DNA from: Amia ocellicauda
Lineage: Eukaryota; Chordata; Actinopteri; Amiiformes; Amiidae
DNA length: 64,000 bases
Direction of reading: 5' to 3'
NCBI RefSeq assembly: GCF_036373705.1
Contig: NC_089864.1
Coordinates: forward strand, 4,741,001-4,805,000
Shown here: positions 28,713-62,366 of the stretch, one piece after another
How positions within the stretch are numbered: the first letter of the stretch is position 1
How the letters are laid out: each line of letters starts with the position of its first letter
Notes under the pieces: generated by a model
What the model saw: only the letters and a program-made list of their open reading frames with translations
What the model was told of the DNA's origin: nothing
Databases searched by the model: none
Made by a program: the position numbers and the translations under genes

Positions 28713-28955
28713 CTAAGAGTCTTTGGAGTCTAGGATGAGTTTCTCCGACGTGGAGGCGATGGGGTGGTCCGTGTCACTGTCAAGGGGCAGGGCGGCGATG
28801 ACAAACTCTGCCGCAGCCTGATCGGTGTTCTCCAGAAAGTTCTTCTCGTCGGGCAGCGTGTGGTAACGGCTTCCTTTGGAGACCTCGGGGGCCTGCAGGA
28901 ATAGAGTGAGAATGGCAATGAGCGAGTGAGTGAGTGTGAGTGTTAACCTGACCTC

Positions 28956-28994
<39 letters not shown>

Positions 28995-31900
28995 CGACCT
29001 CGGGGTGTGAAAGCAATTGCTTGATAAATTACATTCAACAAGGAACAAGGAGGAAGGGAAACAAAGTGGAAGAGATTTGTGAGCATGGGGCCTTGATGTT
29101 GATGTTCATAAAGAATTTGCTAATGGCAGTGCAGTGTGAATGTTTATTAGAGTAACTTTAACATACCCACTGCTTATCTAGGTACACGAAAAGACAGTAA
29201 ATAATTGTAATTTTAACAAAATAAAACCTGCAACAACAAAAAATAAAATTAAAATTAAAAAGCATTGGTCTTTACTTGAAAGTAAACCTTTCACCAGCTT
29301 GGGAAAACCATGGCCATAGAGTTCAGATGGACAGTATTCGCGCCCTTCATTCAGAAGGACATAATTCTCCGATTCCTTTAGCTGGACGCATACAGCTCAG
29401 TAAAAAAATCATCGGTGCTCCCTTTTCAGATTATGGCATGAAAACGCTGCTTCAAGGCCAGAGAAAGCTGTGCAGACTGTATTTGGCTGAACTGAGTTAA
29501 GTTGTTGATTTCTGCTGAGCCTCGGTCCAAAGTCTACACAACCCCCTCGTGGTAAAACAATTTGTTCAATGTGAAATGCGTAAATAAGGACGTTGTCATC
29601 AATACTGTATTTACATCTTTCAAATCCTTTACCTTCCTCTTACTTCTCCCTTATAGATTATGTATGACAGGACTTTTAATGCCAGACTTTGATTTCCAGG
29701 TCAGTGTACCAAGCAACCCACTCAACACAAGAACAGTATTGTTGCGCATGCCTGCTCCTACAACATCCTTGGTTTGGTTTGCATCCTTTGCAAACACTGC
29801 ACAACTGCTCACTCAGAACTGTACATACTCACCTTTCTTGTCTCCAAGCATAACCTTTAGCCATGCATTTGGAGCTGACACACACAAAGGAAAAGATCAG
29901 CCCCCATTGGGCCCAGAGAAGCTTTCAGATACCTTCCCCTCCTCTTCAGTCACGTCTGTGTACGATGGTTTGTCATCCCACTGCGACACGGACTGCGTAG
30001 TGGCGTCCTCCGTGAACCGGTTGTACGCTTCGTGGACCACCTGACGGGGGGAGTAATAATACATAAATAAATACAATATGATTAAAATAATATAATAATA
30101 TAAATTCCAGAACTGCATGAAGCTCAGTGTTGAGGGATGATAATCTGTGGAAACTGTACTCAATCCTTTGCATCTCACAGGTGCCCTAGGAGCCATACAG
30201 AGCTGGGTAGGGATTTTGGGTGGCTAAACTGGTAAAAGCTTGATTGTTTGAAGACAAAGCTGACCCCAATCTGGGCCCTATAGTCCACACAGCAACGGCT
30301 CCAGTCTCGGCCCTATAGTCCACACAGCGATGGCTCTAATCTAGGCCCAATTGTCCAGACAGCGCTGGCTCCAGTGTGGGCCCCATAATACAGACTGATT
30401 CCGAATCCTTGATTAAAAACGTCCAGCCGCAGAGACACTCACGGACCTGTCTGAATGCCTCTCCCTCGCTCTTGTCCGCCTGCTGGGTGATCTTGGCGAT
30501 GGCTCGGGCCTTCTCCGCCCGCTGCTTGATCTTTTTCATGCAGGACACCAGACACACACACAGCAGGAACAGCACCAGCAGGAGCAAGGAGATGATCGCC
30601 ACGTACAGCGACGGCAGCTTGTAGGCTGAGGGAAGGAAGAGGCCGACGTCAACGACAGGAACAGTGCAGGGTGGACACTTACCGAGGGCCTGCCCATCTC
30701 ACAGGGAAATCCCAGCTGCTGCCTGGAATGAAATGTGTAGCTTCCGACAGCGCTCTCTTCTCTTACGTACTGCGGGATTGTTGTAGTTGTTGATATACCC
30801 TCTTGAAACATTTCAGAAATGAACACAAAAAGATCTCCTTTAAGACAACGTGAATGGAATATTTTAGGAGTCAATCTATAATAAATCTGAAGCCTTGTGA
30901 TTTATAGATTGCAGGCTGTGGTCTGTTTTATTTTAATTTTGTGATTGGGATCCCTTTTGACACCTCACTCTTCATTAGGAATCTCAACGCTCCTAACGAC
31001 TGAGGTTACGCTCTGAAACCTCAAGTATTCTTCAGATCCACTAGAGGTTTCGGACTGTAAACCCAGTCAAACATGTCAATCCAATTCCTGATGGGCCTTG
31101 GTTATGAAGGCACCAGGCCAATCCCCAGCAGCACAGGCTTTCAAGGGCCACCAAGCTGCATTTTAACTTCCTTTGGGTCTAGGTGAGTTGTCCACTAACT
31201 ATTCCTCTCCCTCTCCCCTCTCTATCTCCTACTCTCCCCTTCCTGTCTCTCTCTCGTCAACCCCCCCCCCCCACAGACACACACACACAAATCTGATTAA
31301 TTAGTAGTCCCCTTACCAATTAATTAATGAGTTGTTCACTCACCTTCCACTTCAAGGTGGACGTTGGAGATGAGCGTTCCCGTCAGGTCCTTCACTGTGT
31401 AGAAGCCGGTGTCGGCCGTGGTGACGCTGTCCAGGGTGCACAGCTTACCGTCCACATGCAGGCGAGTGTTGTACTGTGGGTCGCTGACCACCCCCTCCTT
31501 CAGCAGCACCCGCTCTGTCTTGTCCCTGTCCGAGAGGAAGGACAGCGTCACGGACGCCTTGTCCAGGATGAGGTTGATCTTCAGGGTGCCACCGTACGCC
31601 AGCTCCACGAACATTATATGCTCTGTGGGAGGGGGAGAGAAAGTTGGAAAAGGGGAGCGATGGGAGAGAGGAGAGAGGGAGAGGGGATGGGAGAGAGGGA
31701 GAGATGGGGAAGTGTAAGGCAAAGGTGGTATACTGCAGTGCAGTGTAATGTATTGTCATTATATTGTAGTCCGTGTCATTGTCCTGTCATACATTGCGGT
31801 GAACTCTAGTCTTTTGACTGGTACCATATCCCATCACCCTGTACTGTATAACACTGACCTCACCCTTCCCCCCCAACAAACAAACAAGCAGGTGGTCATT

Positions 31901-34874
31901 GGTCAGTGGGTCACCTTTCACATTCAGGCACATCTTCTGCACGGCATTGCCCTTTGTGTCCCACACCGTGTAGGCCCCTTCATCAGCCGGCGTCACCCTG
32001 TGCAGTGCCCAGCGATGCCCCTGCATCACCAGCCTCTGCTGGTACTGGGGTTCCATCACCTCACTGTTGTTTATCAGGAGCCGGGGCTGTGCCTCGGGCT
32101 GGGCCTCGGGCTGGGTCTCCGTCTGGGTCTCGGGCTGGGTCTCGGGCTGGGGCTGGGGTTGGGCCTGGGGCCGCACCACCTCTGGAGTGAACTCCAGCTG
32201 CACTGCGCTGGACTCCTGGCTCAGTGGGATGTTCAGGGTGTCTCCGTACTTCAGGATGTGCTCTGTTACACAGTCTGGTCCAGCAGCAGCAACAACGACA
32301 AGAACAAACAACAAAAGCAGGGGCTGCAGGTCAGATGGTGCTTTAGATGGTGCTGACTTTCTAGTCAGTCAGTAACACAGTTGTGTTGAACAGTGCAATA
32401 AGATTTAAAGGCGAGTCTGATTGATGAGGGAAGCAACTGAACTGGCATAAGAGAGAAAAAGAGCGAGCAAGAGAGAGAGAAATCCTGCAAACGTGTGCAT
32501 GGCAAGAATTCCCCTCCTCTTGCCAGGTGAATCATGTCACCCCAGAGCCCCAGCAGCAGGAAAAATAATGTGGAGGATTTTAATTTGCAGGCTGGAGTTA
32601 TGTGCTGCCGAACGCACACAAATGAACACGTCATTAGAGCATCTGAGGACATTGAAAAAGCCTTCGTTAATAAATGTTTTGTATAATGTCATCTCTGGGG
32701 TTCCATTTCAAAGCTATGGAAAAAAATACAGATTTCCTTCTGAATTTACAACACCTTCCTATATGCTGGCTCTTGTGATGAATATATCGATTTATTCTAT
32801 TTAATTTAAAAAAATCAGTAAAACTAGGTGCACTGAAGTGGAAAGGTTTGCGACCAGCTCATGTATGTGACAGGGTGTGTGTTTGTGTTTTGGGGGGAGC
32901 AGGCTGCCTGTTTCTTTCAGCATCTCTTCTAACTTCTGAAAAATTTAATATCCTGGAGCATTACGCAGTGTGCTGAATAATTGATCGATTTTGGGACTGT
33001 CTGATTACAAAGTTGCGCCGCTGTGTGCCAATCTGCTGACGACACAAACTTCAATCTCCATCTCTGGCCCAAAAAGGGGTTTGGATTTCTGAATCTCAGC
33101 ACCCCCCCCCAACCCCCTCAACACCACTCCTCAGCAAATCACTATGTGAAGTGAAAGGTTAGCTCTTCAGAGAGTGATACTCCAAAGGGGTCAAAATAAG
33201 GAGCTGGTGGCATAAGGCCTGTTGTTGTCTTTAATGCCTCGCTTGTATTTTTGAAGCTGCAAAAAAGTGCATCTGCAACACTTTTCTGTGATAGAGTTAG
33301 ATTTTATTAATTTTTTTAGGAACTTTTCATACTCCTCTTTTGTTCTTTTTCTGTGTCAATCAAGCAGTCGATGCACTCCCAAAGGGTTCGCCTGATTGCC
33401 AAAACCCACAAATGGAGACAGTTGGTTACAAAGAAATCTCTAAATGCCTCATTCTGGCCACATGATGAGCTTGCACAGAAAAACAGGAAGGGCCCAGACT
33501 GGAGCAGCGCTGTGTGGACTATAGGGCCCAGACTGGAGCAGCGCTGTGTGGACTATAGGACCCAGACTGGAGCAGCGCTGTGTGGACTATAGGGCCCAGA
33601 CTGGAGCAGCGCTGTGTGGACTATAGGGCCCAGACTGGAGCAGCACTGTGTGGACTATAGGATAGGACCCAGACTGGAGCAGCGCTGTGTGGACTATAGG
33701 GCCAAGACTGGAGCAGCGCTGTGTGGACTATAGGACCCAGACTGGAGCAGCGCTGTGTGGACTATAGGGCCCAGACTATAGCAGTGCTGTGTAGACTATA
33801 GGGCCCAGACTGGAGCGGTGCTGGGTGGACTACAGGGTGAAGACTTTTCTCGGTCGAGACAGTTTTACTTCACTCTTCAAAGGACACATGCTGGTCCTAT
33901 TCTGTACTCAGACACCCGGACACCTCTCTGCCCAGACCCAACGGCCCTCACCTCTCACGATCAGTGTGATGTTGTGGATGTACTCCGTAGAGTTCAGCTC
34001 CACCACTGTGTACAGGCCCTGGTCCTTCACCGAGACCTTCTCCAGAATCAGGAAGTTGGACAACAGGTGACAGCGGGGATCCAGATCACGGCCCGGACTC
34101 ATCAGACGCCGCCTGTCTATCAGGGGGGACTTAGGCAGGAACCAGGACTCCTGGGTCTCGATCTCTGTCATGGGGATGTACAGGTCCTGGCCATGGAACA
34201 GGGTCTTTGTTTCATCTTTCCCTATTGATTTATTTTTAAATAAAGACAGACAGACAAGGTGAGGAGAACGCCTGAACACTGAAAATGTGAAAAAGACCAT
34301 ATTTGTAATATATAGTCCACCTTTATTAGTAAGACTGACCTGCATTTCATTTATATTACATCAAAATATTTTAAGTAGTACAACATTTCCTTCACTTTGA
34401 AACACGCTGTGAGTATACACAATAAATGGCAAACATCCCGAGACTAATTGAAACCTCTGCTCTTTGCCTCTCTTCACGTATGAATAAATAAAACAAATAA
34501 AAACATGAATTATTTACCCATTGAAGACAAGGAACTGTATATCTGAGAGCTTTCACTTTCCTACTGGGCTATTTTTAGGTTTTTTGTCCTTCCTTGTTGT
34601 TTTTCTGTTATTGTTGGGAATAAACATCTGCAGGTTTTACCTTCATAAACCACTGAACTTGACAGTCGACAATTTGTTTTGCAGCTAGAGAAAGGGACCA
34701 GCACAGCTACACTACACCACATTGCATTACATCACATTGCACTACACTGCATTATTTTACACCACACCACAGTTCACTACATTGGAGTACACAATCTAAC
34801 AACACACTACACTGCACCGCACAATACGACTGGAGCAAGTGGAGTGTGGTACTTTTAGCCCTTACGGAACATAG

Positions 34875-34916
<42 letters not shown>

Positions 34917-37900
34917 TCTCATTCATCAAATCAACCCCCTTTTACGTGTATTTAAAACATGGGAGTGGTTCCAAATATATTTTAGTCTATAACCCATAAA
35001 CCTATTTTACATGTTGGGACTATATGGTGACAGCGTCCATGCCCAGAAAAACTCCAGACTGAAGAGGTGAAATCAGCTGCCATTTTTACAGTCGCATCTG
35101 AACATGGTCAGAGTCCGACAAACTCTGACAAGGCAGTGCTGTTGAATATGTTTTGTCACCAAATATCAGAAAAACAAATTAAATATGTGAATACTCGTTC
35201 GACTGCAACGTGTGTATGTATTTGACAAAAAGGGCGGTGGGCTAAGGTTAAGACTGGTTCCTGGTTCAAGGCCCGGGACAGCCGCTCACTCGCTGTGTGT
35301 CGACCAGAGCTGAAAGCGTCGCCCCTCGCTCGACTGTTCTGCGGAAGGGGCACGAGATCGAGGCGCTGCTGTCAGAGACACTGCAGCGGTGTTGTTTTAC
35401 AGCATTACCTCATCTTCCCCAATATCTACAGGTCCCCATTGGATTAAAGTGTCCGCTGTGTGACTAATAAGGAGCTGGTCAGGAAGTGGTGGTGGGGGGG
35501 GGGGGTTACATTCCAACCCATATCCACTGACACTGTGTTTGCAGATTAGTGCGGATATCATATGTGGTGATATTTGAATGACTGTTGGTTTGTTATATCA
35601 AATTTATGTATTTTTAAAAATAAAACAATATAAACATACATTTACATAGATCAGGCTTTAAAAGTCACATCAGGACCAACTTTCTATCTTGTTCCTTTTG
35701 AACATCACGCTGAATATGTCTTACATGAGATTCTCCTTCTTGATTATTATTACATATTAATAAGGGTGACTTACAGCTGTCACAAAATAAACAGCTCTGG
35801 AAAAAATTAAGAGACCACTCCAAGTTCAGAAATCAATGTTAAGTGGTCTCTTCATTTTTTCCAGAGCTGTATACACTCACCTAAAGGATTATTAGGAACA
35901 CCATACTAATACTGTGTTTGACCCCCTTTCGCCTTCAGAACTGCCTTAATTCTACGTGGCATTGATTCAACAAGGTGCTGAAAGCATTATTTAGAAATGT
36001 TGGCCCATATTGATAGGATAGCATCTTGCAGTTGATGGAGATTTGTGGGATGCACATCCAGGGCACGAAGCTCCCGTTCCACCACATCCCAAAGATGCTC
36101 TATTGGGTTGAGATCTGGTGACTGTGGGGGCCAGTTTAGTACAGTGAACTCATTGTCATGTTCAAGAAACCAATTTGAAATGATTCGACCTTTGTGACAT
36201 GGTGCATTATCCTGCTGGAAGTAGCCATCAGAGGATGGGTACATGGTGGTCATAAAGGGATGGACATGGTCAGAAACAATGCTCAGGTAGGCCGTGGCAT
36301 TTAAACGATGCCCAATTGGCACTAAGGGGCCTAAAGTGTGCCAAGAAAACATCCCCCACACCATTACACCACCACCACCAGCCTGCACAGTGGTAACAAG
36401 GCATGATGGATCCATGTTCTCATTCTGTTTACGCCAAATTCTGACTCTACCATCTGAATGTCTCAACAGAAATCGAGACTCATCAGACCAGGCAACATTT
36501 TTCCAGTCTTCAACTGTCCAATTTTGGTGAGCTTGTGCAAATTGTAGCCTCTTTTTCCTATTTGTAGTGGAGATGAGTGGTACCCGGTGGGGTCTTCTGC
36601 TGTTGTAGCCCATCCGCCTCAAGGTTGTACGTGTTGTGGCTTCACAAATGCTTTGCTGCATACCTCGGTTGTAACGAGTGGTTATTTCAGTCAAAGTTGC
36701 TCTTCTATCAGCTTGAATCAGTCGGCCCATTCTCCTCCGACCTCTATCATCAACAAGGCATTTTCGCCCACAGGACTGCCGCATACTGGATGTTTTTCCC
36801 TTTTCACACCATTCTTTGTAAACCCTAGAAATGGTTGTGCGTGAAAATCCCAGTAACTGAGCAGATTGTGAAATACTCAGACCGGCCCGTCTGGCACCAA
36901 CAACCATGCCACGCTCAAAATTGCTTAAATCACCTTTCTTTCCCATTCAGACATTGAGTTTGGAGTTCAGGAGATTGTCTTGACCAGGACCACACCCCTA
37001 AATGCATTGAAGCAACTGCCATGTGATTGGTTGGTTAGATAATTGCATTAATGAGAAATTGAACAGGTGTTCCTAATAATCCTTTAGGTGAGTGTATATT
37101 CAAAGAAAAGATACAATAAAAGCAAATTATAAAAAAAGCAGAATCCCTAAGAACAAGCACAATATACAGTGTAGGGCTCTAATCAGGGGTAGCTGAATTA
37201 AGTGTGGGGCCAAAACAGGCTTGATTGCCAATGATACAGATTCAGACACAACTGAGGGAATTTCAGGTGCCAGAGAGACTCGCATCCATGCACAGACGCA
37301 CACCAGGCAGCTATGGAAATTAATATTAGAGTCCCGTGTGCGATTTCAAAGGAGATCGCTTGCTTCCAACAGCTGAAGGGAGGTGGTAGAACACGAAGTG
37401 CACTGTGGCGAATCAATATTCACCATCGACCCACTGTGAGAGAGTCTGGCTATATGTGGAAGTCATCTCGTGCTGCCCACCAACATCTCACAGGTAGGGA
37501 GGCAGCGTGGCCACCTCTTGAATGCAAATTATTTACTTATTGATTCATTGAAACACCGAAATGATAACAATCAGTTCACATTACGTTATCGATCTACTAG
37601 AGCAGGGATGTCAGACTTAGTCCTGGGGGGCCGCAGTGTCTGCTGGGTTTTGTTCCAGCCCTGCTCTTGGCACCTTAATTGCTCTAATAAAATGATTAAC
37701 TGGATCAATTTAACTCTTCTCTCCAGACTCTGAAATGTTCGAGTCATCAACAAATTGTAAGGAATCGGCTAAAAATATGTAATAGTCACCTGAGTAAATA
37801 ATGACATTAATTAAGTAATTGGGATCTCCTGTTGGAACACAAACCAGCAGACACAGCTGCTCCCCACCACTGGAGCCTGACACCCCTGTGCTAGAGGAGA

Positions 37901-40426
37901 TTGAATACACATCTTGCTGCATTGCTTCGTTCAAATCGTCAGCTGCATGTGGATAAGCATTCGACACTGTCCTACCTCAAGTCATCTCGAATATCAGTTG
38001 CAAGGCTGCAGGATTTAGGAAAATATAAGCCATCCAATGAATAAAAAGATATCCTGTATTATTATGGTGAATGTATACTGTAAAAGTGACTAACAAGAAT
38101 ACAAACATATTCTAGAAATATATACTCCCACAGGTGCGCTTGAGCGCTGGCAGACAAGACCGACAGGTGCTGCGTTTCGATCAGGACTCATCTGTTATCA
38201 GGCATAATTTGGCAAGTTTCTGTACTGACGCAGTGACCTTTGGTTGATCTTTAGATTTCATCTCCTCCTGCACATGAATAACAATGCAGATTGTTCCTCC
38301 CACATTAAAATCTAAGTGTAACTGCCCATGTTCTGTGCATGGCTGTGTGCTCATCACATTAATGGTAACTGAACTTGTAATATTGGTTTCACCTTTAACT
38401 TGGAAGTACACAAACACAACACAAAAAGCAAAGCCAGTGGGGAAGCCTGGCAGTAGGTTAACCGTCTCTTACCGAACTGTGCCGAGGACGAACCTGGACA
38501 AGAGAAAAAGACAAGAGGAAAAACAAACTTCATTAAAATGACAGCAAACAGACTCACGCATTTCATATTAAATTTCCACTTAGTGTAAACTCCCCTGCCC
38601 CTGGGACACAGAGGTCTTAATGCCTTTTTGAGCTGGCATTCAAATTTCACATCTTCAATTGATTTAATAAAGTGGTCCAATGGACATATCTAACCTTTCC
38701 ATTTTTATTTTTATTTAGTTCTTAAACAGGCCGATTCGACACACTTGGATTGTTTTTCCCATCGTTTATTGATCGTAATTTGCAATTTCCCTGTCCGTTA
38801 AGCTGAAGTGATTTTCTTCTGCCGTAATGACTCCCAGTCTTCACCCACCACATCACCTCTGTCCCGCTCTTTCTAATTAAATGACGAGGCTGGTGGTTGT
38901 GCAGACAGACGTGGGGGGGGGCTTATTGCTGCTCCTGCCAGCTGGCACTAAAGCCTAAGTTATGACCCACATCCTCTAGCAGAGCCCTGGTTCTGATGTT
39001 CATTACTGAGAAAGCATGCATGGAGTTGCTCAGGGCACTGGCCTGGATAGAGCAAGAAAGACACCAGGCCCTGCCAACTGTGTACTTCCCGCAAGTGACC
39101 ACACATCCAGCCCGCTTACTGGAACTGGAGTGCATGTGTGTGTGTGTGTGTTTGAGTGAAAAATGTATGTCTGTTAGCTGTGAGGAAGGAAAGTTTAAAT
39201 TTCTCTCTTGCAAGGCTTTACTGCTTGTATTCTTAAGGAAGATAGGTCAGGGTCAGGCCAGGAGGTTCCTTGACCTCTGTTTGAATAATGATGTGCATCT
39301 GGGAGACAATGTCAAACTGTGTGATTGTGTGATTTAAGTGTCTCTTTCCCTTATCTATACATTGACCTGGGAACTGTCATCTATAAAGAAATATCTTCAG
39401 CTTAGCTTGCTTTAAAGATAAAATAGAAATGACTTAATTATAAATCAGATCTTTGTTTACTCTTTGTGTATAACAGCGTCTTTTTGTATCGAGTCAGAGC
39501 AACATTGTATTGTTTTTGATTCACTGTTCCTCTCCGTGCTGCGTGAAATAAAAGCACTGCAACGAATGCTGTAACCTGATTGAAGGCTGAGTTTCTTCTT
39601 CCACAGCTGCCTACAAGTCCCCTGTCAAGTTGAGCAATCAAAGAGGTAAGTCGCCCCAAAATGGAGAGCGCATGAATAAACACTGGCAGGAATTGTGATC
39701 CTATTTATTTTATTTTTTTAAGGAAGCATTAACAATAAAGTGTGTGTATGGGGGAGGGGGGGGGGGTCAAACCTACACAATACAGCACAGATGTCAGGAG
39801 AACACATCGTGCTTAAAATAGTTTATTATGCGTAGGTAAGGAAAGGTCCCTTAAGCATTCCTCACCTGCAGTTTAGCAGGAGGCTGTGAGTGAGTTTCAG
39901 TGATTCAGTGAAAGCACACACAGTTGAGAAGGGGGGTTGCATCTGGATTTGTAGCTCCCAGAGTCTTTCACACACAACAGGGTTTTTTAAGTCTCCTCTA
40001 ACCTGAAGGAAGCCAACAGGTATATCTTGCTAACCCATTATTGTAGCTTGAATACCACAAGGCAGGTTTACAGTACAATCTAATTAACTTCCTGTTGTTC
40101 TGGATCTGGAACTTATTCACGGTCAACGCTATGCCTATTTTTGTTAAAGATCATTCTGCTGGTGCTGTTCTTGAACACCACTGATGAACCAAAGCTCAAT
40201 CTGCAGGCAAGTTTAGTGAAGGTTTCAAAAAACCCGTCTAAAAACAAGTGGCAGGAGATTACAAGAGCAGATGGCAACTGAATTTACTGGCAGGGGAGAC
40301 TCGGCCAGGGCACCAGTCATAAGACGCCAAACAGGGTAATAACGTAACTCAACACTTCGAAATCAATAGGAGAGCACAGAACCCACCTGCCCACAGGAGC
40401 AACGCGAACACGCCAAACCAAGCCAT
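28713..40426 (-). CDS. Gene A: atypical three-domain Ig-like receptor with ITIM-type tail
   Basis: Eight exons join in frame: 40387-40426, 38473-38493, 33952-34221, 31915-32274, 31344-31622, 30447-30625, 29933-30040 and 28713-28892, giving 478 aa. Residues 1-14 are the signal start ([13 protein letters not shown]), then a 7-residue microexon. Ig-like domains D1 (21-110), D2 (111-230) and D3 (231-323) each end in D-x-G-x-Y followed by a G strand, with Y-T-V where Y-x-C is expected and no B-strand Cys. D2 has terminal cysteines (DCVTEH, MCLNV) and a Pro/Gln/Glu/Thr repeat insert. D3 has a single Cys (LCTL). A transmembrane segment lies at about 330-352, followed by a basic juxtamembrane helix. 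Tail tyrosines are HEAYNRF (389), PSYTDV (410) and SRYHTL (429). SRYHTL fits the ITIM consensus S/I/V/L-x-Y-x-x-L/V/I. The donor after the TM exon is a weaker GTCCGT, chosen because it keeps the frame. The function is inferred as a cell-surface receptor, ligand unknown. Confidence 0.78.
28959..28991. repeat. (GT)n microsatellite
   Basis: About 16 GT units in the last intron of gene A, just upstream of its final exon. Confidence 0.9.
30262..30384 (-). repeat. 34-bp minisatellite array, reverse orientation
   Basis: Three to four diverged units read CTATAGTCCACACAGC-G-TGGCTCCAGTCT-GGCC. This is the reverse complement of the unit at 33.5-33.8 kb. The array lies in the intron after the TM exon of gene A. 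Confidence 0.75.
32084..32175 (-). repeat. Coding tandem repeat inside D2 of gene A
   Basis: Units of 6 to 12 bases (GGGCTGGGTCTC-like on the plus strand) encode about 30 residues of alternating Gln-Pro with Glu, Thr and Ala. The exon is 360 nt, against 294 nt (gene B) and 285 nt (gene C) for the equivalent domain. The repeat accounts for the difference. Confidence 0.85.
33491..33835 (+). repeat. 34-bp minisatellite, ten units
   Basis: Ten head-to-tail units of GGCCCAGACTGGAGCAGCGC plus TGTGTGGACTATAG occur, with a 5-bp insertion after the fifth. The last two units are most diverged. The array lies in the gene A intron between D1 and D2. Related units occur at 3.54, 30.3 and 56.1 kb. Confidence 0.92.
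34879..34913. repeat. (TA)n microsatellite
   Basis: Pure TA tract in the gene A intron between the microexon and D1. Confidence 0.9.
35791..35870. mobile_element. 80-bp palindromic MITE
   Basis: Terminal inverted repeats of about 28 bases (ACAGCTCTGGAAAAAATTAA at the left end, its near reverse complement at the right) surround a short unpaired middle. TA-rich flanks suit a Tc1/mariner-mobilised miniature element. It abuts the DD36E element directly. Confidence 0.7.
35870..37098 (-). mobile_element. Tc1/mariner-type DNA transposon, DD36E type
   Basis: The 1.2-kb element is bounded by near-perfect inverted repeats of about 30 bp (CACTCACCTAAAGGATTATT at the left end; the reverse complement ends at 37094-37098), with TATA at both borders that includes a TA target duplication. 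It contains one transposase gene on the minus strand. It lies in the gene A intron between the microexon and D1, antisense-neutral with respect to exons. Confidence 0.93.
35987..36946 (-). CDS. Tc1/mariner transposase, DD36E, early stop near the C-terminus
   Basis: The frame gives 319 aa. Residues 1-110 are the paired-like helix-turn-helix DNA-binding region ([30 protein letters not shown]), followed by basic residues. The DDE core shows [15 protein letters not shown] and NPIEHLW. I count 36 residues between the second Asp and the Glu, against 34 in Tc1 itself, so it belongs with DD36E elements. TAA at 35987-35989 is followed in the same frame by 26 sense codons to a TAG at 35906-35908, so the ORF probably lost its C-terminal 27 residues by one nonsense change. 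The catalytic triad is intact. Confidence 0.92.
   Translation of the reverse strand: MGKKGDLSNFERGMVVGARRAGLSISQSAQLLGFSRTTISRVYKEWCEKGKTSSMRQSCGRKCLVDDRGRRRMGRLIQADRRATLTEITTRYNRGMQQSICEATTRTTLRRMGYNSRRPHRVPLISTTNRKKRLQFAQAHQNWTVEDWKNVAWSDESRFLLRHSDGRVRIWRKQNENMDPSCLVTTVQAGGGGVMVWGMFSWHTLGPLVPIGHRLNATAYLSIVSDHVHPFMTTMYPSSDGYFQQDNAPCHKGRIISNWFLEHDNEFTVLNWPPQSPDLNPIEHLWDVVERELRALDVHPTNLHQLQDAILSIWANISK
37605..37895. repeat. Interspersed repeat in inverted pair
   Basis: The 37.61-37.71 kb segment (GGGGGGCCGCAGTGTCTGCT, then GGGTTTTGTTCCAG) reappears as its reverse complement at about 37.80-37.90 kb, giving two facing copies of one repeat family around about 90 bp. The copy at 13.64 kb is a relative. 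Confidence 0.55.
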
Positions 40427-41507
40427 TGTCATCCGATCCCTGTAGGGAGATAATACTCAATCACACATCAGTCCCCCCATTTCCAGACAATTTTGAATGA
40501 CAACTGACTTAATTCAATGTTGTTGACACTGCCCTTAGGTTTGGGGTGGCAGAGAGATATATGTGAATCCAAGGCATGCTATAGGCACGGGGGGTGAGGG
40601 ATGTGTGTATGTGTGTGTAGGGGGGGGTGTCGGTGTCCAGTGATGGGGCAGAGATGTGATCTCTATCCCTCTATCATGTGATGTGATCAAGCACCTCCTA
40701 TGAATAAAATACAGAATCTGGTACAGAATCTCCCCATCGGAGACTGTAGATGAGTTCTGGGCTGGAAATATAATTGCTACGCTATGAATGTCTCTCTCTA
40801 CTGAGATATATGTTGTGCCAGAAAATGGGCTGCTCTCTCACATGGCAGGATCTGAGTTTGTTCCCCCTGGCGCTTGAGAAGGGGACTGCAGCCACATTAA
40901 GTCAGCATTTATATCAGCTTCAGAAGGTCCCACACTCAGACACAACTAGGGTGGTATTAATTTCCATGTACCTATAAAATATGACCCAGATTAAGAACTG
41001 CATACAAGAGCAACCTCCTTAATTCAAACTCAAGAGACGCAGTACATCAAACAGAAATACGGATATAGAGAAGGAAGGAGGAAAAGAAAGAAAAATAACT
41101 AATATGAAAAACGAGAATAAAAATATGATATATAATATGATAATATAAATACATAATGATATAAATATAAATGCTGTGGGTGAAAAGAAAATGACACCGA
41201 AAACAAAGATTATCAAAGATTACAAAGACAATCGTTATTCCCAAATCGCAATGTATTACATTTTTGCAAGATGCATGAGTAAGCCACACATCAACACACA
41301 TGCATGTATATAACCAGATGCTTCATAAACACGGTGTCGTGGTGTCCCGGTATCGGTACAGTTGGGCGCCGTTTCAAGTGCTGTTGTGCCAATGAAAACA
41401 CAGCGTTACAATAGGAACAAAAGGTGTAATTTTCAGTTGTACAGGGCAAGACTTCTGTCAAGGCTTTTAAGGTAAATCCATAGTCACTGTATTTTTGTGC
41501 TTGCATG

Positions 41508-41510
<3 letters not shown>

Positions 41511-41561
<51 letters not shown>
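41511..41561. repeat. (TTA)n microsatellite
   Basis: About 17 TTA units. Confidence 0.9.

Positions 41562-41564
<3 letters not shown>

Positions 41565-42260: not shown

Positions 42261-42316
<56 letters not shown>
42261..42316. repeat. (ATA)n microsatellite
   Basis: About 18 ATA/AAT units, with a shorter imperfect tract 30 bases on. Confidence 0.9.

Positions 42317-43302: not shown

Positions 43303-43304
<2 letters not shown>

Positions 43305-43350
<46 letters not shown>
43305..43350. repeat. (TC)n microsatellite
   Basis: A pure TC tract of about 23 units in GC-rich surroundings. Confidence 0.9.
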
Positions 43351-43352
<2 letters not shown>

Positions 43353-43732: not shown

Positions 43733-43763
43733 ATACTACTACTATTACTACTACTACTACTAC

Positions 43764-43799
<36 letters not shown>
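43733..43799. repeat. Compound (CTA)n(ATA)n microsatellite
   Basis: About 10 CTA/TTA units pass into about 12 ATA units. Confidence 0.85.
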
Positions 43800-43801
<2 letters not shown>

Positions 43802-45865: not shown

Positions 45866-48546
45866 TTAATCAAATACCTCTAATCTGTCTTCACCCGTCT
45901 TCTGCCGAGACTTCCCGACATCCTGACGTTCCTCGATGAGAGACACTGAATCGTCATCTTCCAATGTGGAGTATCTGTCGTTCTCCATCTAGGAAGAAGA
46001 TGATAATAATATGTCAAATAGCAGCTGCCTTATCCATGTTTTCTCAAAATGCAATGTACAATGCATGCCACGTTACCAGGTTAACAGCAGCACTATAAAA
46101 TAGAAACACTGACAGCGTGGTGGACATTCTGTACCCTTATGGCAAACGGTTTTGTGGTCTGATGAAATGAAAATGATTTTTTTTTTTGGCTTAAATGTGA
46201 AGTATTATATCTGGCGCAAACCAACACAGCACATCACAGAAAAAACACCATCCCTACTGTGAAGCACAGTGGTGGCAGCACCATGTTATCTGGATGTTTC
46301 TCCTCAGCAGGGACACTTGTCAGGATAGAAAGGGAAACTAATGGAGCAAAGTATAGAGAAGTCCTTGAGGAAAACCTGCTGCCTTCTGCAATCAAACTGA
46401 AACTGGGACAGAAGTTCATCTTTCAGCCCAAGGAATGTGACAGAGCTTGAGCAGTTGTGTAAAGATCGGTCAAATACTGCCAAGCTAGTAGGTCTGCGAA
46501 GCTAGTAGAGGCCGATCCCAACAAACTCACTGTAGTTGCTGCCAAAGGTGTTTGCACCAAGTATTAACTCCAGGGGTGGAGAATTATCCCATTATGATAT
46601 TTCAAATTTGTATTTTTAATATATATTTTCACAATAAAAACATTTCTCCTTAACAGTGTGGAGTATGGTGTGTAGGTAAGTGGGAAAAAATCCTCACTGA
46701 AACATGTGAAACTCTGAGGCACTGACACAACACAATGTGGAAAAAGATCAAGGAGGTGTAGACACTGTATATACAAACACACACGATTAGACACACTTAC
46801 CTCTTTGACTGATTGCTTGGCAAAGCTGACCATAGCCACTGCCTTCTGCGGGACTCTCTGTATCCTCTTCTTACAGTACAGCAGGAGGGCAAGGATGAAC
46901 AAGACACCCAGGATACTGACAGTGGCGACTGGGAAGTAGCCAGACGTCCTGTATTCTGGAAAGGAGTTCATCATTCAATTAGACCAAATAAGGAGCCAAG
47001 AGCTGTCCCAGAACAACAACCAAAAGACACCCCGGGGGGCCACCCAGGACTGGCGTTTGACACCCCTGCTTCAGCTGTAGAATACCTCTCCACAACTGTC
47101 CCACATCACCAGGGCATGCTTTGTAATTAAGCCATAGTGGACGTGAAGTCTTATCCACAGACTCACTGGCTACACACTGCAGCTTAAACAACCCAGCTAC
47201 AGCACAGACCTCCTCCTTACCCTGCACATACAGGGTGACTGTGACGATGATGTTCCTGTTGGAATCCACCACCTTGTACACCCCCGTGTCAGCCGAGGTA
47301 ACGCTCTGCAGGGTGCACAGCCTGGGGAGGAGGGAGAGGCGCCCCCTGTAGGCCTCGTCTGTCACCTCCCCCCGGTCAACCAACACCCTACTGGCAACCT
47401 CATGCCGGGACCCAAACAGGAGCCTGATGGTCGATTCGTTGGCGAACAGCGGGATGTGGAGAGTGTCTCCATGGGCCAGGTCCAGGAAGCTCTGGTGGCC
47501 TTGATTGGCAGAGACAAAAAGAATCATCACAGTAATAGCTTTAATCAGAAAGACCCTCATCTTCTATATGATAGTGTTTTTTTAAGACAAGTCTTCCCGA
47601 CTGGGCGTCTCCCAAGTTCTTAGTTACAGATGAATTCATATTTGATATTATGTGAATGAATCGGTCCCCAGGTCTTCCTGCTCTGCCTATTGAGAAAGAA
47701 TTTCTCCCGATCAACAGCTCGGACCTGCAAACCTTACCTTTCACAGTCAGGCAGATTTTCTCCAGGAGCTTCCCCTTCTCCTCGTCCCACACCGTGTACG
47801 CCCCCTGATCGTCCGTGGTCAGTCTGAGCAGCTCCAGACCCGTCTCCAGCGCAGAGAGCCGCGGCTGGTACTTGGGGTCGGTCACCTGGCTGCAGTTCAT
47901 TAAGAGCTGGGACCGAGGCCGGCGCTGCGCAGGGATGGCAGGAGAGAAGTGCAGCTGCACTGCAGAGGAGTCCGGCGGCAGGGAGATCTCCAGCGTGTCT
48001 CCGTACTCCAGGGTCTGAACTCTCGTACACTCTGAAAGCGGGAAACAAGAACGTGCCAACTGAGTATGTAAACTGGAGGGCTGGCTTGATTTAAACAATA
48101 CAAGGTTTCATACTGACAACCAGGGTAGTGGCACAAAGACTGGTTGTTAGACCACAGAAAGACTTCAGAAAGACTGGTTCTGAAGTTAGTCTCAGGGCAG
48201 CTAGGACAGATTTGAGAAGTGTGATCTGTGTCCTGGAAACTCGGGAGCTGGAACCACATTTCTTTTTTTGTTTGTTTTAGCTAACCTGCTTGTCAGGCCA
48301 AAACCTCACGTATGTGTGTGACCTCCACTTCAAAACCCCAGGCTTCAATCTGAGTTTCTGTACTTACGAGATTGTGCCAGGAGTGTATCTGAAAGAGAAG
48401 AAAATAAAAACAATGAGTTGATCCACCTGGCTCAACCAGTACAAGCCTGACAGCAGGTTAAGTAACACATATAACACTGAACACTACCACAAACACAGGG
48501 ATACATTACCTGAACACAGAAGGATAATCAAGAGCCTCCAAACCAT
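45866..48546 (-). CDS. Gene B: atypical two-domain Ig-like receptor
   Basis: Six exons join in frame: 48510-48546, 48368-48388, 47738-48031, 47221-47499, 46801-46955 and 45866-45988, giving 302 aa. The signal start is MVWRLLIILLCS, followed by a 21-nt microexon (DTLLAQS). The first Ig-like domain (residues 20-117) matches D2 of genes A and C: terminal Cys (QCTRVQ), LEYGDTLEISL, GAYTVWD and ICLTV. The second (118-210) matches D3: a single Cys in LCTL and GVYKVVD. Neither has the B/F-strand Cys pair. The transmembrane segment lies at about 219-238, followed by CKKRIQR. The short tail contains NDRYSTLEDD (Tyr 268), resembling the gene A motif SRYHTLPDE. No equivalent of D1 fits in the 336 bases between microexon and first domain. 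The final TAA at 45866 is used, as the frame is open to it. Confidence 0.8.
46150..46570 (+). mobile_element. Decayed Tc1-like transposon fragment
   Basis: The translation at 46259-46450 reads like the middle of a Tc1 transposase (MKHSGGSTMLSGCFSSAGT, KYREVLEENLLPSA, LKLGQKF). It starts with a GTCTGATGAAATGAAAATGA-type segment and ends with TGCTGCCAAAGGTGTTTGC. Frameshifts and stops interrupt it, and no terminal repeats are seen. It lies antisense in the last intron of gene B. Confidence 0.75.
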
Positions 48547-53200: not shown

Positions 53201-56200
53201 AGTAGCAGTCTTGTTTTTTACAAGATCTGTTTTTTATCGCTGCCTGTTCAAAAGGGTTGTTTAGGTTACTGGAGTGTTATCAGTGCTACTACCGACATGC
53301 AAAATCCATGAGGCACAAACACACCAGCCATGCTGCACTGGTTCTGAACTCCAAAGACGATCATACATTTTAACACAGCATACAAAACACCAAAAAAGGA
53401 ACACATTGGCTATTTTTGCAGAATATATACCTTTAATGTACCCCGCCCACCCCACCTGTAACCCCCCCCAAACAAATCTCTCCATTACAAAAGACTGCAG
53501 CCCTGTACTGTCTCGGCCAGGACAGCCTCCTACACTGTGTCCGTTTGATAGTACAAATCCGTTCCGTGCCCAAAAGCTCCGGAATACTGGTGTTCTTCTT
53601 TTGTACATCGGATACTGGCCTTGTGTGATGTCACAGGAAACACAACAACAAAAACAAAATCAAAAAAATAATACTGGTAATAATGATATTACTAATGTAA
53701 CAAATGTCAAGTTTCATAATGCACAGCTGTGTGGGATGACCCCTACAATTACAAATGCCAACAAATGTAATATAATTAAATAAAAATAAAAAATGAGAAC
53801 AGCAGTCACAACACCCATACAAATTATTCCCTGTTCCCCGGCAACCATCAGCGACATTCAGAAGTGACTGACAGGGCTGTGAAGGATAGTCAATGCTATG
53901 CAGATAACTATGATATGGAAGTGTTTCTGTTATTATTGGGGCCATAGCCATTGTGAGGAGGAGAAAAACTAAACTAAAACTATTTAAAATCTGAGTTATA
54001 ATTATATGCGTCCCTACATTTGTTACCTCTACTGTTTGAATACATTCCATATATGCTGTGCGTGGTTTATGCACCATGCTCAGATGGGATTACATTTTAA
54101 AGGATAATGCACTGTAACCAAACCCATTCTTTCACCAAATCAGTCCAGATGAACAGGATTTTTAGCCACTGATTGAGCACACCTGTAAAACAGATCGGCA
54201 TGAGCAGAATCCATGAAGAAGGACAGGTGCCCTTTAACAAGGAGTGTCTCTGTACAGAAGTGAACACGGTGCACATTTTTACTTGAAACAGGCGTGACCC
54301 ATTTCAGAAGCCGAAGTGATAAATATCTGTTAAACTACAAGGAAAATAAACAGAACTGGCAAGTAATGCACATGCAAAGGCATACAAAGTTCAAGAGGCA
54401 ACATTAACTACCAGTCCCCATTTCACATGTGTCTCCTGGGGACAAAAAAAAAAAGCAATGGCGTGCCGTGACCATGGACAAGACACGCACTCGGGGGACT
54501 GACACACGTCAACCATTTAAAGCTTTTATAAAAATGACATATCACTGGATGGAGCCATACAGAAAAAGGGTTCAATTGAATCTATCTATGCTGGCTATAT
54601 TAGAGTCTGTTGGGTTTTCTGTTCCTGTTGAATTCAAACGCGTGAAAAGGTAGTGGATTTGAGGAACAAACGCAGTGGATTTAAACTTTACAATCAGCAT
54701 TGAAGCTCACACATGCGCCAAATAAAGTACCGTCTTAATAAACACAAATTTACAGAGAAGGTCTGAACTTTACATTCATCAGACTGTGCAAGATCAGTCA
54801 TTTGACCTGAAATCTGCGTGTGCGTAGAGTAAAAAGGCAGGGTTGCGATGGGTTTTCCTTCTCTGACAAGTCTTTAGGGGTATCTGTAGCGTTTCTTTAG
54901 TGTTTATTTTCAGGAACGAGAGGTTAATTAATGCATGCCATCTTATCCATTGTGCCACACCACTGGCTAATAACACTAACATGTGTACAACCCCTGCTCC
55001 CTATCCCACACAGGAATACACACAGTAACATTAATCTACGCAGAAGTACATATACCGTTTACTGAGACTGGAAATAGGCATAACATTGGATAAAGTTTAA
55101 AGGGTGATTTTGCATTGCAGTAGTGTTATTTTCCACACATCCACTATTGCTGGGCTCCATGCATAAATGCTAGCTTTGCACTTTTTATGTATAATGCAGA
55201 TAAATTGGGGACAGGTCAGAAATTCCCAATGAACACCTTGGAGGGTTGCACACTTGTGTCAGTCATCCTTTTTTCTTTTTCAAATTAAACCAGTACAGTC
55301 ATCATCAGCTGACCAGTTACAAAACTCTCACTCAATAATGAAGGACAGCCATTACATTACATCTTGATTCATACAAACACAATATCCCCAAAACACAAAA
55401 CACAGAAGCTTCCCTCATATAGAAGTTCATACAGGGGAGGTTAGAAAGCTTTGCTTGGTTGTCTGAAGGGATGACAGTTTTTATTATTATTAATGTGGAT
55501 TTTCTTTTTTGTAAGTTAAAAAATAATATTATATAAAAGTAAATACAATTAACAAGTTTTCTGCTTGTTTTGGGTAGGAATCAGCACACACAAATACCAG
55601 TCTAGAGTACCATTATTTACTTAAAAATTGTATTTATCAATGATTATGGAGAATTTTTTGAGTAGCCAGATAAAGGCTTTATTCGTCAAATTTTATCAAC
55701 GTAACCATAAATTATCTGGAGGATTATCTGGAAGTTATACTGGTGTAAAACTCTTATAACTATTAGGCTTGTCTGTAAATAAACTGCACCCGAAGACATG
55801 TCAGTTGGAGATAATCCCTTCCCTGTCCTTCATTACGAGAGGATATTTTGTAATCAGCTGGTAGGGGCGTTGGTGTGCTGATTAATTCATAATTCCTTAA
55901 ATCTATTTCACTGGTTTCAGAACGAAGTGGGTCCAAGAGGCCCCTGATCTCCGCAGGGCCCGGCCCCCAACCTGAAAAAGGCAACTTGTATGCGATTCCA
56001 TGACAACCGCATTCAAAGTCTGACAGAATTCGACTCTTTACAATGCATGCACCTTTCGCAAGACAAAACTATTTATGCAGGTTGTGCCCCTATAGTCCAA
56101 ACAATGCCAGCGCCAGTCTGGGCTCTATAGTCCACACAGCGCTGGCTCCAGTCTGGGCCCTGTAGTATGGATGGTATCACATTCGAATATGACCAGCATT

Positions 56201-57885: not shown

Positions 57886-60800
57886 TTAGGAGTGGGAGGG
57901 GCCCAGGTTGAGTTTGTCGGAGGTGTAGATGGTACAGGGGTCCGGGCCGCTGTCCAGGCGCAGACCGGAGATCTGGAACTCAGGGGCGCGGGGGTCTCCG
58001 GCAGCCAGGCAGTCCATCTGGACAGGAAGGGGGAACACGGTGTCTCCCACGGACACCGCTGAGGCCTGGGGTTGGGACTAGGAGTGAGCAAGAGAGAGGA
58101 GGGACACATTAAAGTGGGAAGAAAGGTAATTGCTTTTCACACGAGAGAAAGGGAGGGAGACGGGGAGATGGAAAGAGGGAGGAAGGGAGAGAATGGGAGT
58201 TGTTTCAGTAGAAGGGGTGGCGAGATGCCTCCTGAAAGTAACATCTCACACACAGCCTTACTGGCCCCGGACCGCAAGACGTTGAGGGCAACAAATCCTA
58301 TAAACACGACCTGGCAATCAAAGTCCCCCCCCAATCACTACTACCAGAGGAATCGACTGAGGCATCAGAAAGCGGCGGCATCTGAAGCCACCTGCCGTGC
58401 GGTTGCCAAGAGCAGGCTGCTCGGGGAGGCCGCCACAGCCAGCCCGTTTCAACCCTGCAAGAGAGGATGTGATTTCCTGGGGAGGGTGTGGGCCGCCTCC
58501 TGGGAGAGACGTCCTGGGGACTGAAGGATCTTACTGTGCCTCAGCTGAATGAAGGTGGAGGCCACTTTATTTATAGATTTTTACCTGCATCGGCCCTCCC
58601 CCTTCCTCGCTGGGCGGCCTCAGCTCAGTGGCTCTGTAGTGACTGTGTGGCTCTGGAGCCGGAGCAGCAGGGACGCCCTCGTCAATATGAGTGTAGCCCT
58701 AAAGAGAGGCCCCAAGCAGAGAGAAATCAGCCGCTACTCAGCCGCTACTCAGCCGCTCTCCATTTCTACACCTATCTGTTCGTCTTCATATTTGTTTTGC
58801 CCAGGGTAAGAACCAAACATTGACTTTTGATTGGTTGACAAATGTGTTTCTGAGCTGCTTGTTTGGCCTTTTCACTTTCTTTTCTTCTGGATTAAAACAG
58901 TCCCGATTATTTTCATTTGGGAAAAATTTATGACAAAGAATCCTACAGGAGCTAATCCACTCCAGAAAGTCCAGTTTTATTGTGGAATTTCTTGCTACAA
59001 AAAGCACTGATTACAAAGTAACATCTTTAATAAGCCTCAATGTATACCTGTCTCCTGTAGTTGCATTAGTTTTTTTTTTTTTTAACCAACTACAGTATTG
59101 TTTACAGAAACTATAGTTTGAAGAGTACTTTATCTGAGGCGGAGGGAATATCCAAATTCCGTTTGCATTCCTCTGCAGAGTTGCAACTCAGGATCAAATT
59201 CTTCAAATACGGTCTGTCAGTCATGTCACAGCTGGCTGAGACACACACCTTAGTGAGACGCAGCTTGGCAATGTGGCTCGTGCTTGTGTATATAAAGCTG
59301 ACTGACATCGTTACCTGTATGAGCTCGAACCTGTTTCCTTCCTCGCTGGGCAACGCCACTTCAGTAGCTCCGTAGCCAAAATGTGTTTCTGTAGCAGAGG
59401 CCGCGGTGCCCTCGTGGACAGGAATGTAGGCCTGCAGACAAACACCACAGTTGTATCAAAACAGCCCTGAGAAGGATTAACGAATACCTGGAAAAACATC
59501 TTAGAGATGGTTCAAAATCGAACTACTTGCTTAAATAGACTTGTACAACAATTTACTTACAAAATCCAGGTGCCTTAATATAATTTTCAATTTAACATGA
59601 AATATATTTAGCAGAAGAGCAGAAGTACCTTCCTCTCCTGCTTGCGGGCTGTCCATTCCTTGGGCTTGGCTTCGTACGGAGGAGGAGGGTGGATGTCTTG
59701 AGGAACGTTGGAATATGCCTGCAATAAAAGCAAACGGCATCAAACTCTGAACTCAGAAAGAGCCACTACAAGAGTGCAAAGCATTTAGTAGCTGGAATGG
59801 AGTCGTCCAGGACCACCGCCCACTACCCATGAGCCTTTGCTACTCACATTCGCATATGCCGTCCTGCCGGGCTGGACCTCGACCACTCGAGGCTGTGGGG
59901 CACCGCTGCTGTCCAGCTCCCGGCAGGTCTTCCTGAAGTAAGGCACAGCGCACACACACAGCACGACCACCGCCATCGACCCGAAGGCCTTCAGTGCGAT
60001 AAAGTAAGGGGGGACCACATAGGCTGGGGAAAGAAACAAATCCAATGTTATTATGAACACCAAACCAACTACGGTTGTTATGAAACTACAAATATTTCAT
60101 TAAAAAAACTAATCGCATTTAAAAAACTAAACAAACCATATAGAGCACAAAAATTCAGTCAATCCGGACGGTTAACAACCTCAAACACAGAACTGAACAC
60201 ATCCCTTCTCTGCAGTAATAATTCTGGACTAACCCGTTTATAATTGCAGAAGAAAAGTAAATTAATTCTAAAAGATTGGAAGCGCTAGTGTGTTTAACCT
60301 GCAGATGGTATCTCATAAAGCAACCCCCCCCCCCCCACAATAACACAGGCCTGCTTACAGCCGACTTGCAGGTCCAGGCGCAGGACAAGGACCTTCTTCT
60401 TGTCTCGGACTTCGTAGGTGCCCCGGTCCCGGGGGGTGACGTTTGCCAGGGTGCACTCGTGGGTGCCGACGCGGAGGCGCTGCGCGTACTGCTCGTCCAC
60501 GATCACCCCGCCGTCCACCAGCAGCCGGGCAGGGTGCTCTGACTCCGGGGAGAAGCGCAGCTCCACCTCCGTGTCCCTGGCGTAGAAGGGGATCTCCACT
60601 GTGGCGCCGTAAGACACTTCCTTCTGTTCTTTGCGAGCTGCGCGGTGGTGGGTGGGGTAGACAGGAACACCGAAAGTCAGAGCTGAAGAGGGATGTGGGG
60701 GGGGATACAAAGGCACTACAATCGTACACCACTCACCCACCACCTTCAGGCAGACCGTCTTCAGGACATGGCCGATGCTGTCCCAGATGGTGTACTTGCC

Positions 60801-62366
60801 CTGGTCCTCCGGGCTCATCTTGCGCAGCGTCAGCTGGCGCTCATGGACAGTGGCCCTGCGGTCGTACTGAGGGTTGGGGAAGTGACTGTAATTCAGCAGG
60901 AGCCTGGGCACTTGGGGCCCAGGGGCCAAGGGTTCGAACTCCACCCTCACCGAGGACGGAGTGGTGGTGAGGGCAAACTCAAAGTCTTCTCCGTAGTAAA
61001 CAGAGATGTTGGTTACGCATTCTGAAGACACAGAGAGAGAGGAGACGTCCCACCGTTTCAGCAGAAGCGAGGCTCCAGATATTAGGCCCTAAACACGATT
61101 CATCAAGGGTGTCCTTACAGAAACTGGCATGCACTGATGAAGCTGTGGAGATGATCAGGGGATGTAGGATATCAGGGGATAACACATGCAGTTAATACTG
61201 GGGGAGGGTTGGACTTCTACTCAATTTATTTTGCGGGGAAAATATTTAATTCGAAATGGATTACAATTTAACCAACAATCACTCAATGAATAACAGTTTC
61301 AGGGCTTTCAGAGGGTCCTTTGGATTGTCTAGATATTCGTAGAGTCGCAGTCTGTGATTGGGTAAAAAATATCAGATCTCTAAGGCTGATGACAGCCACA
61401 GTAGCGTCCTATCCATTGGGTAATTCCATGTGCATGTTCTGCAGATCCGCGTTGGATTACAGAAGGCAGGGATGCGATGACGCGATGTAAACAAACCACA
61501 CGTTGTTATTTTCAGCCAAATCTCAGGTACGCAGCTCCTGTGAGCCCCAGCCCAATTTAACCCCTTGTCAGAAATAATCCTGCAGGCAACCGTGTTCGCT
61601 CTGAAGACACTGCCACGGGACTGACCCCACACCCCCACGTACCCATCACTGTCAGGTGGATTGTAGTCATCGCGACATTCACGTACTGGAACATCATCTC
61701 ATAGAGGCCCTGGTCCTGTAACGTGACATTCGGCAAAGTCAGCTGGTCCTTCCTGGAGTTCATCTTCCAGCGGGGGTCCACCAGCTTCAGGTCCTCCATC
61801 ACCACCTTGGGGGACCCAGTGGACGCCCAGGGTTTGAACACCATTCTCCTCAGATCGTGGGACGTGAGGGAGATGGTCAGGTTCTCCCCGGGGGTCAACC
61901 ACACACGGGTGTTCCTTATGCCTGGCGAGAGAAAAGCAGGACGGAAATAAACCTCCAATGACAACACACAACACTACATGAAACAACACCACCATGACAC
62001 AATACACCACGCCACCGTGACACACCGAACAACACACAATACACCATTCCATACAGCAATACGGCACACCACCATGACAAGACACAACACAAGACACAGC
62101 CCGTGACACAACCAAACCCCACTGTGTGTGTTTTCCTCAAGACCAGCTACCAGGATTGTCCCAACTTACGGAAATCCCCCCACGCTAGATCTGCCAGGAG
62201 AACCGGGGGAAAGAGAAACAGCACTGGATTAGAATCACCAACAGAGTCGAGCACAACAGATCATTTACACATTTCCATTTTGAGTTGAATGCAAGTTACA
62301 CGCCTCCTCTCACAAGTGGACCCTACCTGTGCGGAGCAGAGCAGCCAGCAGAATCCACAGCAGCAT
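57886..62366 (-). CDS. Gene C: atypical three-domain Ig-like receptor with long multi-tyrosine tail
   Basis: Ten exons join in frame: 62327-62366, 62170-62190, 61643-61921, 60737-61021, 60359-60637, 59848-60023, 59629-59718, 59315-59431, 58585-58698 and 57886-58077, giving 530 aa. The signal start is MLLWILLAALLRT, followed by the 21-nt microexon. Ig-like domains D1 (21-113), D2 (114-208) and D3 (209-301) lack the canonical Cys pair. D2 has terminal cysteines (ECVTN, VCLKV) and KYTIWD; D3 has one Cys (ECTL). The transmembrane region at about 309-331 contains Lys313 near its outer end. The tail has Y-x-N sites (TAYAN, AYSNV), PPPPY (a WW-domain ligand type), AYIPV, GYTHI and TIYTSDKL. Exons 59315-59431 and 58585-58698 encode homologous segments and look like a tandem duplication. 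N-glycosylation sites occur in all three domains (e.g. ENLT, TNIS, ANVT). A surface signalling receptor is inferred; the ligand is unknown. Confidence 0.8.

Follow-up and report, generated by a model that had tools for sequence, protein, structure and literature searches.

We analysed a window of 64,000 nucleotides (nt) of the Amia ocellicauda genome (contig NC_089864.1, positions 4,741,001 to 4,805,000 of the forward strand), within which all positions given below are counted. Three paralogous genes for immunoglobulin (Ig)-like receptors lie in tandem on its minus strand, arranged head-to-tail in the order C, B, A from position 64000 downwards, and all of their exons fall inside the span 28713..62366. 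We lean towards the reading that they encode single-pass Ig receptors whose variable (V)-type domains lost the disulfide between strands B and F, together with the core Trp, once, long ago and before the duplications. A first-pass annotation, made from the DNA letters, had proposed eight Ig-like exons in the three genes, with one exon per domain and phase 1 borders. We re-derived these exons from the sequence: all eight have AG and GT borders, are phase 1 both in and out (8/8) and keep open frames, and they encode domains of about 90–120 residues. Domain exons of phase 1 are general to the Ig superfamily.

The Cys of strand B, the Trp of strand C and the Cys of strand F form the pin that is the textbook signature for recognising Ig receptors. 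None of these three residues is found at its aligned position in any of the eight domains (0/8), as the first-pass annotation had noticed. In the alignment columns, the B-strand Cys position is occupied by L, L, L, F, L, L, L and M, the C-strand Trp position by F in every domain, and the F-strand Cys position by I, V, V, V, V, V, M and V, and the Asp, Gly and Tyr of the D-x-G-x-Y motif are invariant (8/8). We assigned the canonical positions by their distance from the invariant Gly and Tyr, and this assignment is our own reading of the alignment. The Ig-like assignment agrees with structure prediction by AlphaFold2 (AF2), which gave confident V-type Ig folds for the one D2 domain (gene C) and the one D3 domain (gene B) that were modelled (predicted local distance difference test, pLDDT, 92–93). 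The trio is thus predicted to have the beta-sandwich of the V-type Ig superfamily, but neither the B-F disulfide nor the C-strand Trp. We propose that the fold would now be held by a hydrophobic triad, made of Leu, Phe or Met in strand B, the invariant Phe in strand C and Val, Ile or Met in strand F.

The domains are not cysteine-free: conserved Cys remain at other positions, two in D2 and one in D3. The D2 domains (3/3) each carry one Cys where strand A begins and a second within strand G; in C-D2 these are Cys2 and Cys91. Neither is present in the other five domains. The D2 domains also share a Trp three residues past the D-x-G-x-Y tyrosine (Y-T-V/I-W-D; 3/3 D2 and 0/5 of the other domains), and this conserved F-strand Trp would probably be exposed on one face of the sheet. 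D3 of all three genes carries a single Cys in strand E, where the other domains have Leu or Trp, and D2 of gene B and D1 of gene A each carry one further, unshared Cys. Since strands A' and G are neighbours in V domains, an A-G bridge in D2 is plausible, and D2 may have been restapled by this candidate bridge between its A-strand and G-strand Cys. The earlier statement that the canonical disulfide has been lost is accurate for the B and F positions, which have no Cys in 8/8 domains, but overlooks this alternative pair. D2 of gene A also contains a 12-nt tandem repeat (7.3 copies, 32084-32171), which encodes a P/Q/E-rich loop past the C strand; as the repeat is in frame, the length of the loop could vary between individuals.

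To relate the domains to one another, we used four profiles made from the eight exons. The profiles re-match their own exons, as they must (E <= 7.4e-27 for the all-domain profile), and the D1, D2 and D3 types cross-match. As for further copies, none was found in the six-frame translated window, where every other frame stayed at E 0.69 or worse with all four profiles. Pairwise identity between domains is 21–48%, with the highest values in the D2 domains of A and B (48%) and the D3 domains of A and B (42%). Some pairs of different types (up to 35%) are at least as similar as the other D3 pairs (32–33%) and the D1 pair (24%). In a quick tree, the domains still cluster according to their position (D1, D2 or D3), if with modest support (0.71–0.87), which suggests that a multi-domain ancestor was duplicated as a unit. 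The canonical core was probably lost in one ancestral event before the domain and gene duplications, since the eight domains are paralogues and one loss is the simpler history; eight independent losses were rejected as less parsimonious on the same ground.

All three genes have a candidate signal peptide encoded by two exons, the second of 21 nt; that of gene A is the least certain. In genes B and C, a hydrophobic first leader exon is followed by the 21-nt exon. A strict scan of both strands for 21-nt phase-1 exons returned four, all of them on the minus strand (mean 0.875 and maximum 3 in 40 Markov control sequences). We assign three of these to the leaders of C, B and A; the fourth (45340) is unused. 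The first leader exon of gene A was picked from ten candidate rows, and 40432-40387 was chosen because its acceptor lies directly 5' of the ATG, as in B and C, and because of its position. An earlier candidate leader of gene A (38533-38473) was dropped for the combination of 40432-40387 and 38493-38473 after the 21-nt scan. Between the 21-nt exon and D1 of gene A there is a 319-codon frame for a Tc1-type transposase (35987-36946, minus strand; Pfam HTH_Tnp_Tc3_2 and DDE_3).

This predicted leader layout, with two exons of which the second has 21 nt, would be that of FCR and FCRL genes. According to the relevant passages of PMC7940838, FCR and FCRL genes commonly have a signal peptide divided between exons, the second of 21 bp; those of PMC2413239 describe leaders of two exons in FcR-like genes of mammals and Xenopus, with a 30/21 rule that covers several mammalian genes (FCRL1-6, FcgRI, FCRLB) and a fraction of the Xenopus genes. 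The trio also resembles FCR/FCRL genes in having several Ig exons, a transmembrane segment and tyrosine-bearing tails. It differs from them in its first leader exons, which code 46 (A), 37 (B) and 40 (C) nt, so that the 30/21 rule does not hold, and in its V-type fold without B and F cysteines in 8/8 domains, as FCR/FCRL domains have the canonical cysteines. No FCGR, FCER or FCRL chain was present among the 50 matches listed for each PDB fold search, a result that excludes nothing. We put forward as tentative, and somewhat doubtful, the more specific reading that the genes come from FCR-type gene stock, with the whole ectodomain rebuilt from disulfide-free V domains in which Cys-Trp-Cys was swapped once for Leu-Phe-Val, and with D2 later gaining its A-to-G disulfide and the exposed F-strand Trp.

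Transmembrane exons are predicted in all three genes. The terminal exons of genes A and C (28892-28713 and 58065-57886, respectively) each have 180 nt, are 39% identical and, by tblastn (E 1.9e-5), are homologous. For gene B, a composition scan, tblastn and a profile of the two terminal exons all failed to find a tail. The claim that all three genes add a signal peptide, a transmembrane segment and a tyrosine tail is thus supported for the first two (candidates in 3/3 genes each), but extends to the tail in A and C only. A motif scan of the gene A tail found SRYHTL, which resembles an immunoreceptor tyrosine-based inhibitory motif (ITIM; a motif match only), and two further ITIM pattern matches lie at the membrane (SLYVAI in A and SGYFPV in B; none in C). 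The gene C tail has two Y-x-N sites, which we take to be of the Grb2 type, and one P-P-x-Y. If the genes are expressed and spliced in vivo as predicted, the ectodomain would bind a protein ligand in cis or in trans, and the tail would signal by tyrosine phosphorylation, via the ITIM-like SRYHTL in gene A and via the two Y-x-N sites and P-P-x-Y in gene C. Gene B, in which no D1 was found and no tail detected, would be a short or decoy-like member. Just downstream of its transmembrane exon is a plus-strand frame (46166-46450) that resembles a remnant of a Tc1 transposase, an unproven identity, as neither a Pfam match nor an inverted repeat was found.

None of the eight single domains reached the Pfam gathering cut-off. 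Whole protein C passed by the sum of weak stretches (I-set 25.4 vs 23.7; ig 24.6 vs 21.8), whole proteins A and B stayed below the I-set and ig cut-offs, and protein A gave several weak Pfam matches, among them PFF1_TM (E 0.0023) and GAPT (E 0.0028), all of them under the cut-off. The failure of the single domains reflects their divergence, since two canonical V-set frames on the minus strand of the same window were recognised at once, both above the cut-off (15234-14713, Pfam V-set E 3.8e-7; 14370-13984, E 3.1e-9). These two frames, both of which have an additional Cys at the start and another after the F strand, form a separate Ig gene. Kinship between them and the trio was rejected (profile comparison probability 1.4%), and the strict scan found no 21-nt leader exon near them.

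The chances are about even that the three genes are already catalogued fish receptors, annotated as uncharacterised or as Fc-receptor-like, and this would be compatible with the explanation favoured here. The sequence collections searched were phage, viral and prokaryote collections, PDB and Pfam, and protein C, being above the I-set and ig cut-offs, would be tagged as Ig-like by an annotation pipeline; on the other side, such a receptor family is named in none of the titles and abstract openings that our searches of the open-licence PMC literature listed. The assertion that no described family matches was borne out for Pfam with single domains and for the PDB sequence searches, but it has to be qualified by the 21-nt leader, which points to the FCR/FCRL layout, and by the presence of FcmR and pIgR among the fold matches. 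Searches for relatives in viral contigs (two single-domain queries) and in prokaryote genomes (one query) confirmed none. In a viral fold library, queried with the D2 model only, adenovirus, herpesvirus, poxvirus and iridovirus proteins were among the 50 matches listed, at 11–23% identity, which on the modelled structure we read as a shared fold only.

The PDB sequence-profile matches are generic. The best whole-chain match is VEGFR2 (E 1.1e-9, summed over several Ig domains), whose best single stretch has only 17.9 bits. One matched stretch of VEGFR2 (GNYTV) is also without the F-strand Cys, but the best matched domain has Cys at both the B and F positions, and the protein is a receptor tyrosine kinase.

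The trio could instead be a lineage-specific branch of the CD2/SLAM or CEACAM kind whose whole ectodomain arose by duplication of a disulfide-free N-terminal V domain, but we consider this unlikely. The N-terminal V domains of CD2, CD48, CD58 and SLAM have no canonical disulfide, with the F-strand Cys replaced by a hydrophobic residue, and the CEACAM N domain is likewise a disulfide-free V domain on a cell-surface receptor. In the PDB fold searches, a 2B4 chain was at rank 20 (D2) and a chain of the CD2-CD58 complex at rank 22 (D3), amid many other V domains, and CEA/CEACAM chains were among the PDB profile matches, mainly via the segment before and around D-x-G-x-Y. However, both families keep the C-strand Trp, and they keep canonical disulfides in the membrane-proximal domain (CD2 group) or in the domains other than the N domain (CEACAM), whereas here all three residues are gone from 8/8 domains and the membrane-proximal D3 is without B and F Cys in 3/3 genes. 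A split leader with a 21-nt second exon is also not known from CD2 genes.

It appears improbable that the trio branched off from the pIgR/FcmR/CD300 group of V-domain receptors and lost the disulfides of that group. FcmR and pIgR domains are among the fold matches listed for D3, and pIgR is also among the PDB profile matches, but antibody V domains score equally well and the profile matches consist of weak stretches, none of which passes alone. The canonical and extra disulfides of this group are all absent from the trio, and the A-G pair of D2 is unrelated to them.

The joint loss of both disulfide partners in every domain, with frames intact, had been taken as a sign of selection and not decay. 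Under simulated neutral drift (substitutions only, with exons taken as independent), the product of the chances that all eight exons stay stop-free is 1e-4, 3e-7 and 6e-10 at 0.15, 0.3 and 0.5 substitutions per site. The ratios of nonsynonymous to synonymous substitutions (dN/dS; Nei-Gojobori method, NG86; ratios taken by hand) are 0.63, 0.63, 0.58, 0.53 and 0.70 in five of seven paralogous pairs, and 1.15 (A-D3/C-D3) and 0.98 (A-D1/C-D1) in the other two. The synonymous rate is poorly measured, because GC content at third codon positions (GC3) is 0.79–0.87, with lower values at first and second positions (GC1 and GC2), and the pattern is one of only moderate constraint on these coding sequences. 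We infer that the frames were kept, with fast evolution as in immune receptors. The argument for selection survives in part: the frames and five of the seven ratios speak for it, but eight paralogues are not eight pieces of evidence and two of the ratios do not. That the trio are drifting copies of ordinary Ig receptors becoming pseudogenes is very unlikely, as the weak splice sites at some borders, the missing gene B tail, the two high ratios and the transposon in the predicted gene A intron would suit such decay, but the eight intact frames with their phases kept at 21–48% identity, the simulated chances (1e-4 to 6e-10), the invariant Gly, Phe, Leu, Asp, Tyr and Val columns and the excess of GC3 over GC1 and GC2 argue against it.

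Several points weigh against the single-loss receptor reading that we favour, or against its FCR descent, and the two ratios of 0.98 and 1.15 are among them. Splice sites are weak at the donors of the gene A leader, A-D2, the gene A transmembrane exon and the gene C tail, and at the acceptors of A-D1 and B-D3. The gene A leader lies 6 kilobases upstream of D1, across a transposon, and the first strict search for it did not find the exon now proposed. The D2 Cys pair comes from three related sequences, which makes for weak statistics and is suggestive only. With regard to FCR descent, the 21-nt second leader exon could be convergent, being a single trait of gene structure, and the Fc-binding proteins among the fold matches listed are FcmR and pIgR, which are V-domain receptors, and not FCGR, FCER or FCRL.

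Table 1. Predicted exons of the three tandem Ig-like receptor genes, with window positions.
Gene	Feature	Position	Strand	Remarks
A	Candidate signal-peptide exon 1	40387..40432	-	phase 1 out; acceptor immediately 5' of ATG; weak donor gtgggt
A	21-nt second leader exon GSSSAQF	38473..38493	-	1 of 2 strict candidates in 34222-46500
A	D1 Ig exon	33952..34221	-	phase 1-1; weak acceptor
A	D2 Ig exon	31915..32274	-	A-strand/G-strand Cys pair; P/Q/E-rich repeat loop; weak donor gtgacc
A	D3 Ig exon	31344..31622	-	lone E-strand Cys
A	Transmembrane exon	30447..30625	-	phase 1 to 0; weak donor gtccgt
A	Cytoplasmic exon	29933..30040	-	AYNRF, SYTDV
A	Terminal exon	28713..28892	-	ITIM-like SRYHTL, then stop
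B	Signal-peptide exon 1, MVWRLLIILLCS	48510..48546	-	
B	21-nt second leader exon DTLLAQS	48368..48388	-	
B	D2-type Ig exon	47738..48031	-	A/G Cys pair
B	D3-type Ig exon	47221..47499	-	lone E-strand Cys; AF2 pLDDT 92.9; weak acceptor
B	Transmembrane exon	46801..46955	-	no tail exons found downstream
C	Signal-peptide exon 1, MLLWILLAALLRT	62327..62366	-	
C	21-nt second leader exon DLAWGDF	62170..62190	-	
C	D1 Ig exon	61643..61921	-	phase 1-1
C	D2 Ig exon	60737..61021	-	A/G Cys pair; AF2 pLDDT 92.2
C	D3 Ig exon	60359..60637	-	lone E-strand Cys
C	Transmembrane exon	59848..60023	-	one Lys near outer end of membrane span; tail begins AYAN
C	Cytoplasmic exon	59629..59718	-	YSNV, PPPPYE; weak donor gtactt
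C	Terminal exon	57886..58065	-	180 nt; homologous to gene A terminal exon

Other features were observed in and around these genes. The predicted 99-nt intron between D2 and D3 of gene C (60638-60736) has no in-frame stop, and the frame 61088-60294 spans both exons, so that retention of the intron would lengthen the linker between the domains. A minisatellite unit of 34–35 nt is found at 30266-30387 and 33489-33837, in introns of gene A, and at 56088-56166, downstream of gene C; its 17-nt core gave 13 matches at <=2 mismatches, one of them at 3545, and 0 in 100 shuffles. Elsewhere in the window, an Endonuclease_NS domain is encoded at 18171-18911 on the minus strand (Pfam E 7.3e-20), with PDB matches to EXOG and EndoG-type nucleases. 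The frames 1265-1771 (+), 3756-5447 (+) and 19435-19902 (-), which resemble further ENDOD1-type pieces, gave no Pfam match at E <= 0.01 and no NCBIfam match at E <= 0.1.

The loss of the disulfide as such is not new, because disulfide-free V domains are known in the N-terminal domains of CD2/SLAM and CEACAM proteins. What is unusual here is that the loss extends to all eight domains and includes the Trp, and that D2 has a relocated Cys pair. A multi-domain family without the Cys-Trp-Cys pin in any domain would escape the standard models domain by domain, as in the Pfam search described above. If the descent from FCR-type stock is true, the trio would be a receptor class with an Ig core unlike that of any characterised leukocyte receptor, and the 21-nt leader exon would be a gene-structure clue to the origin of such receptors. 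These genes would also illustrate how much of the Ig core can be replaced without loss of the fold, and they would offer a ready case for asking whether a relocated disulfide compensates for the lost one.

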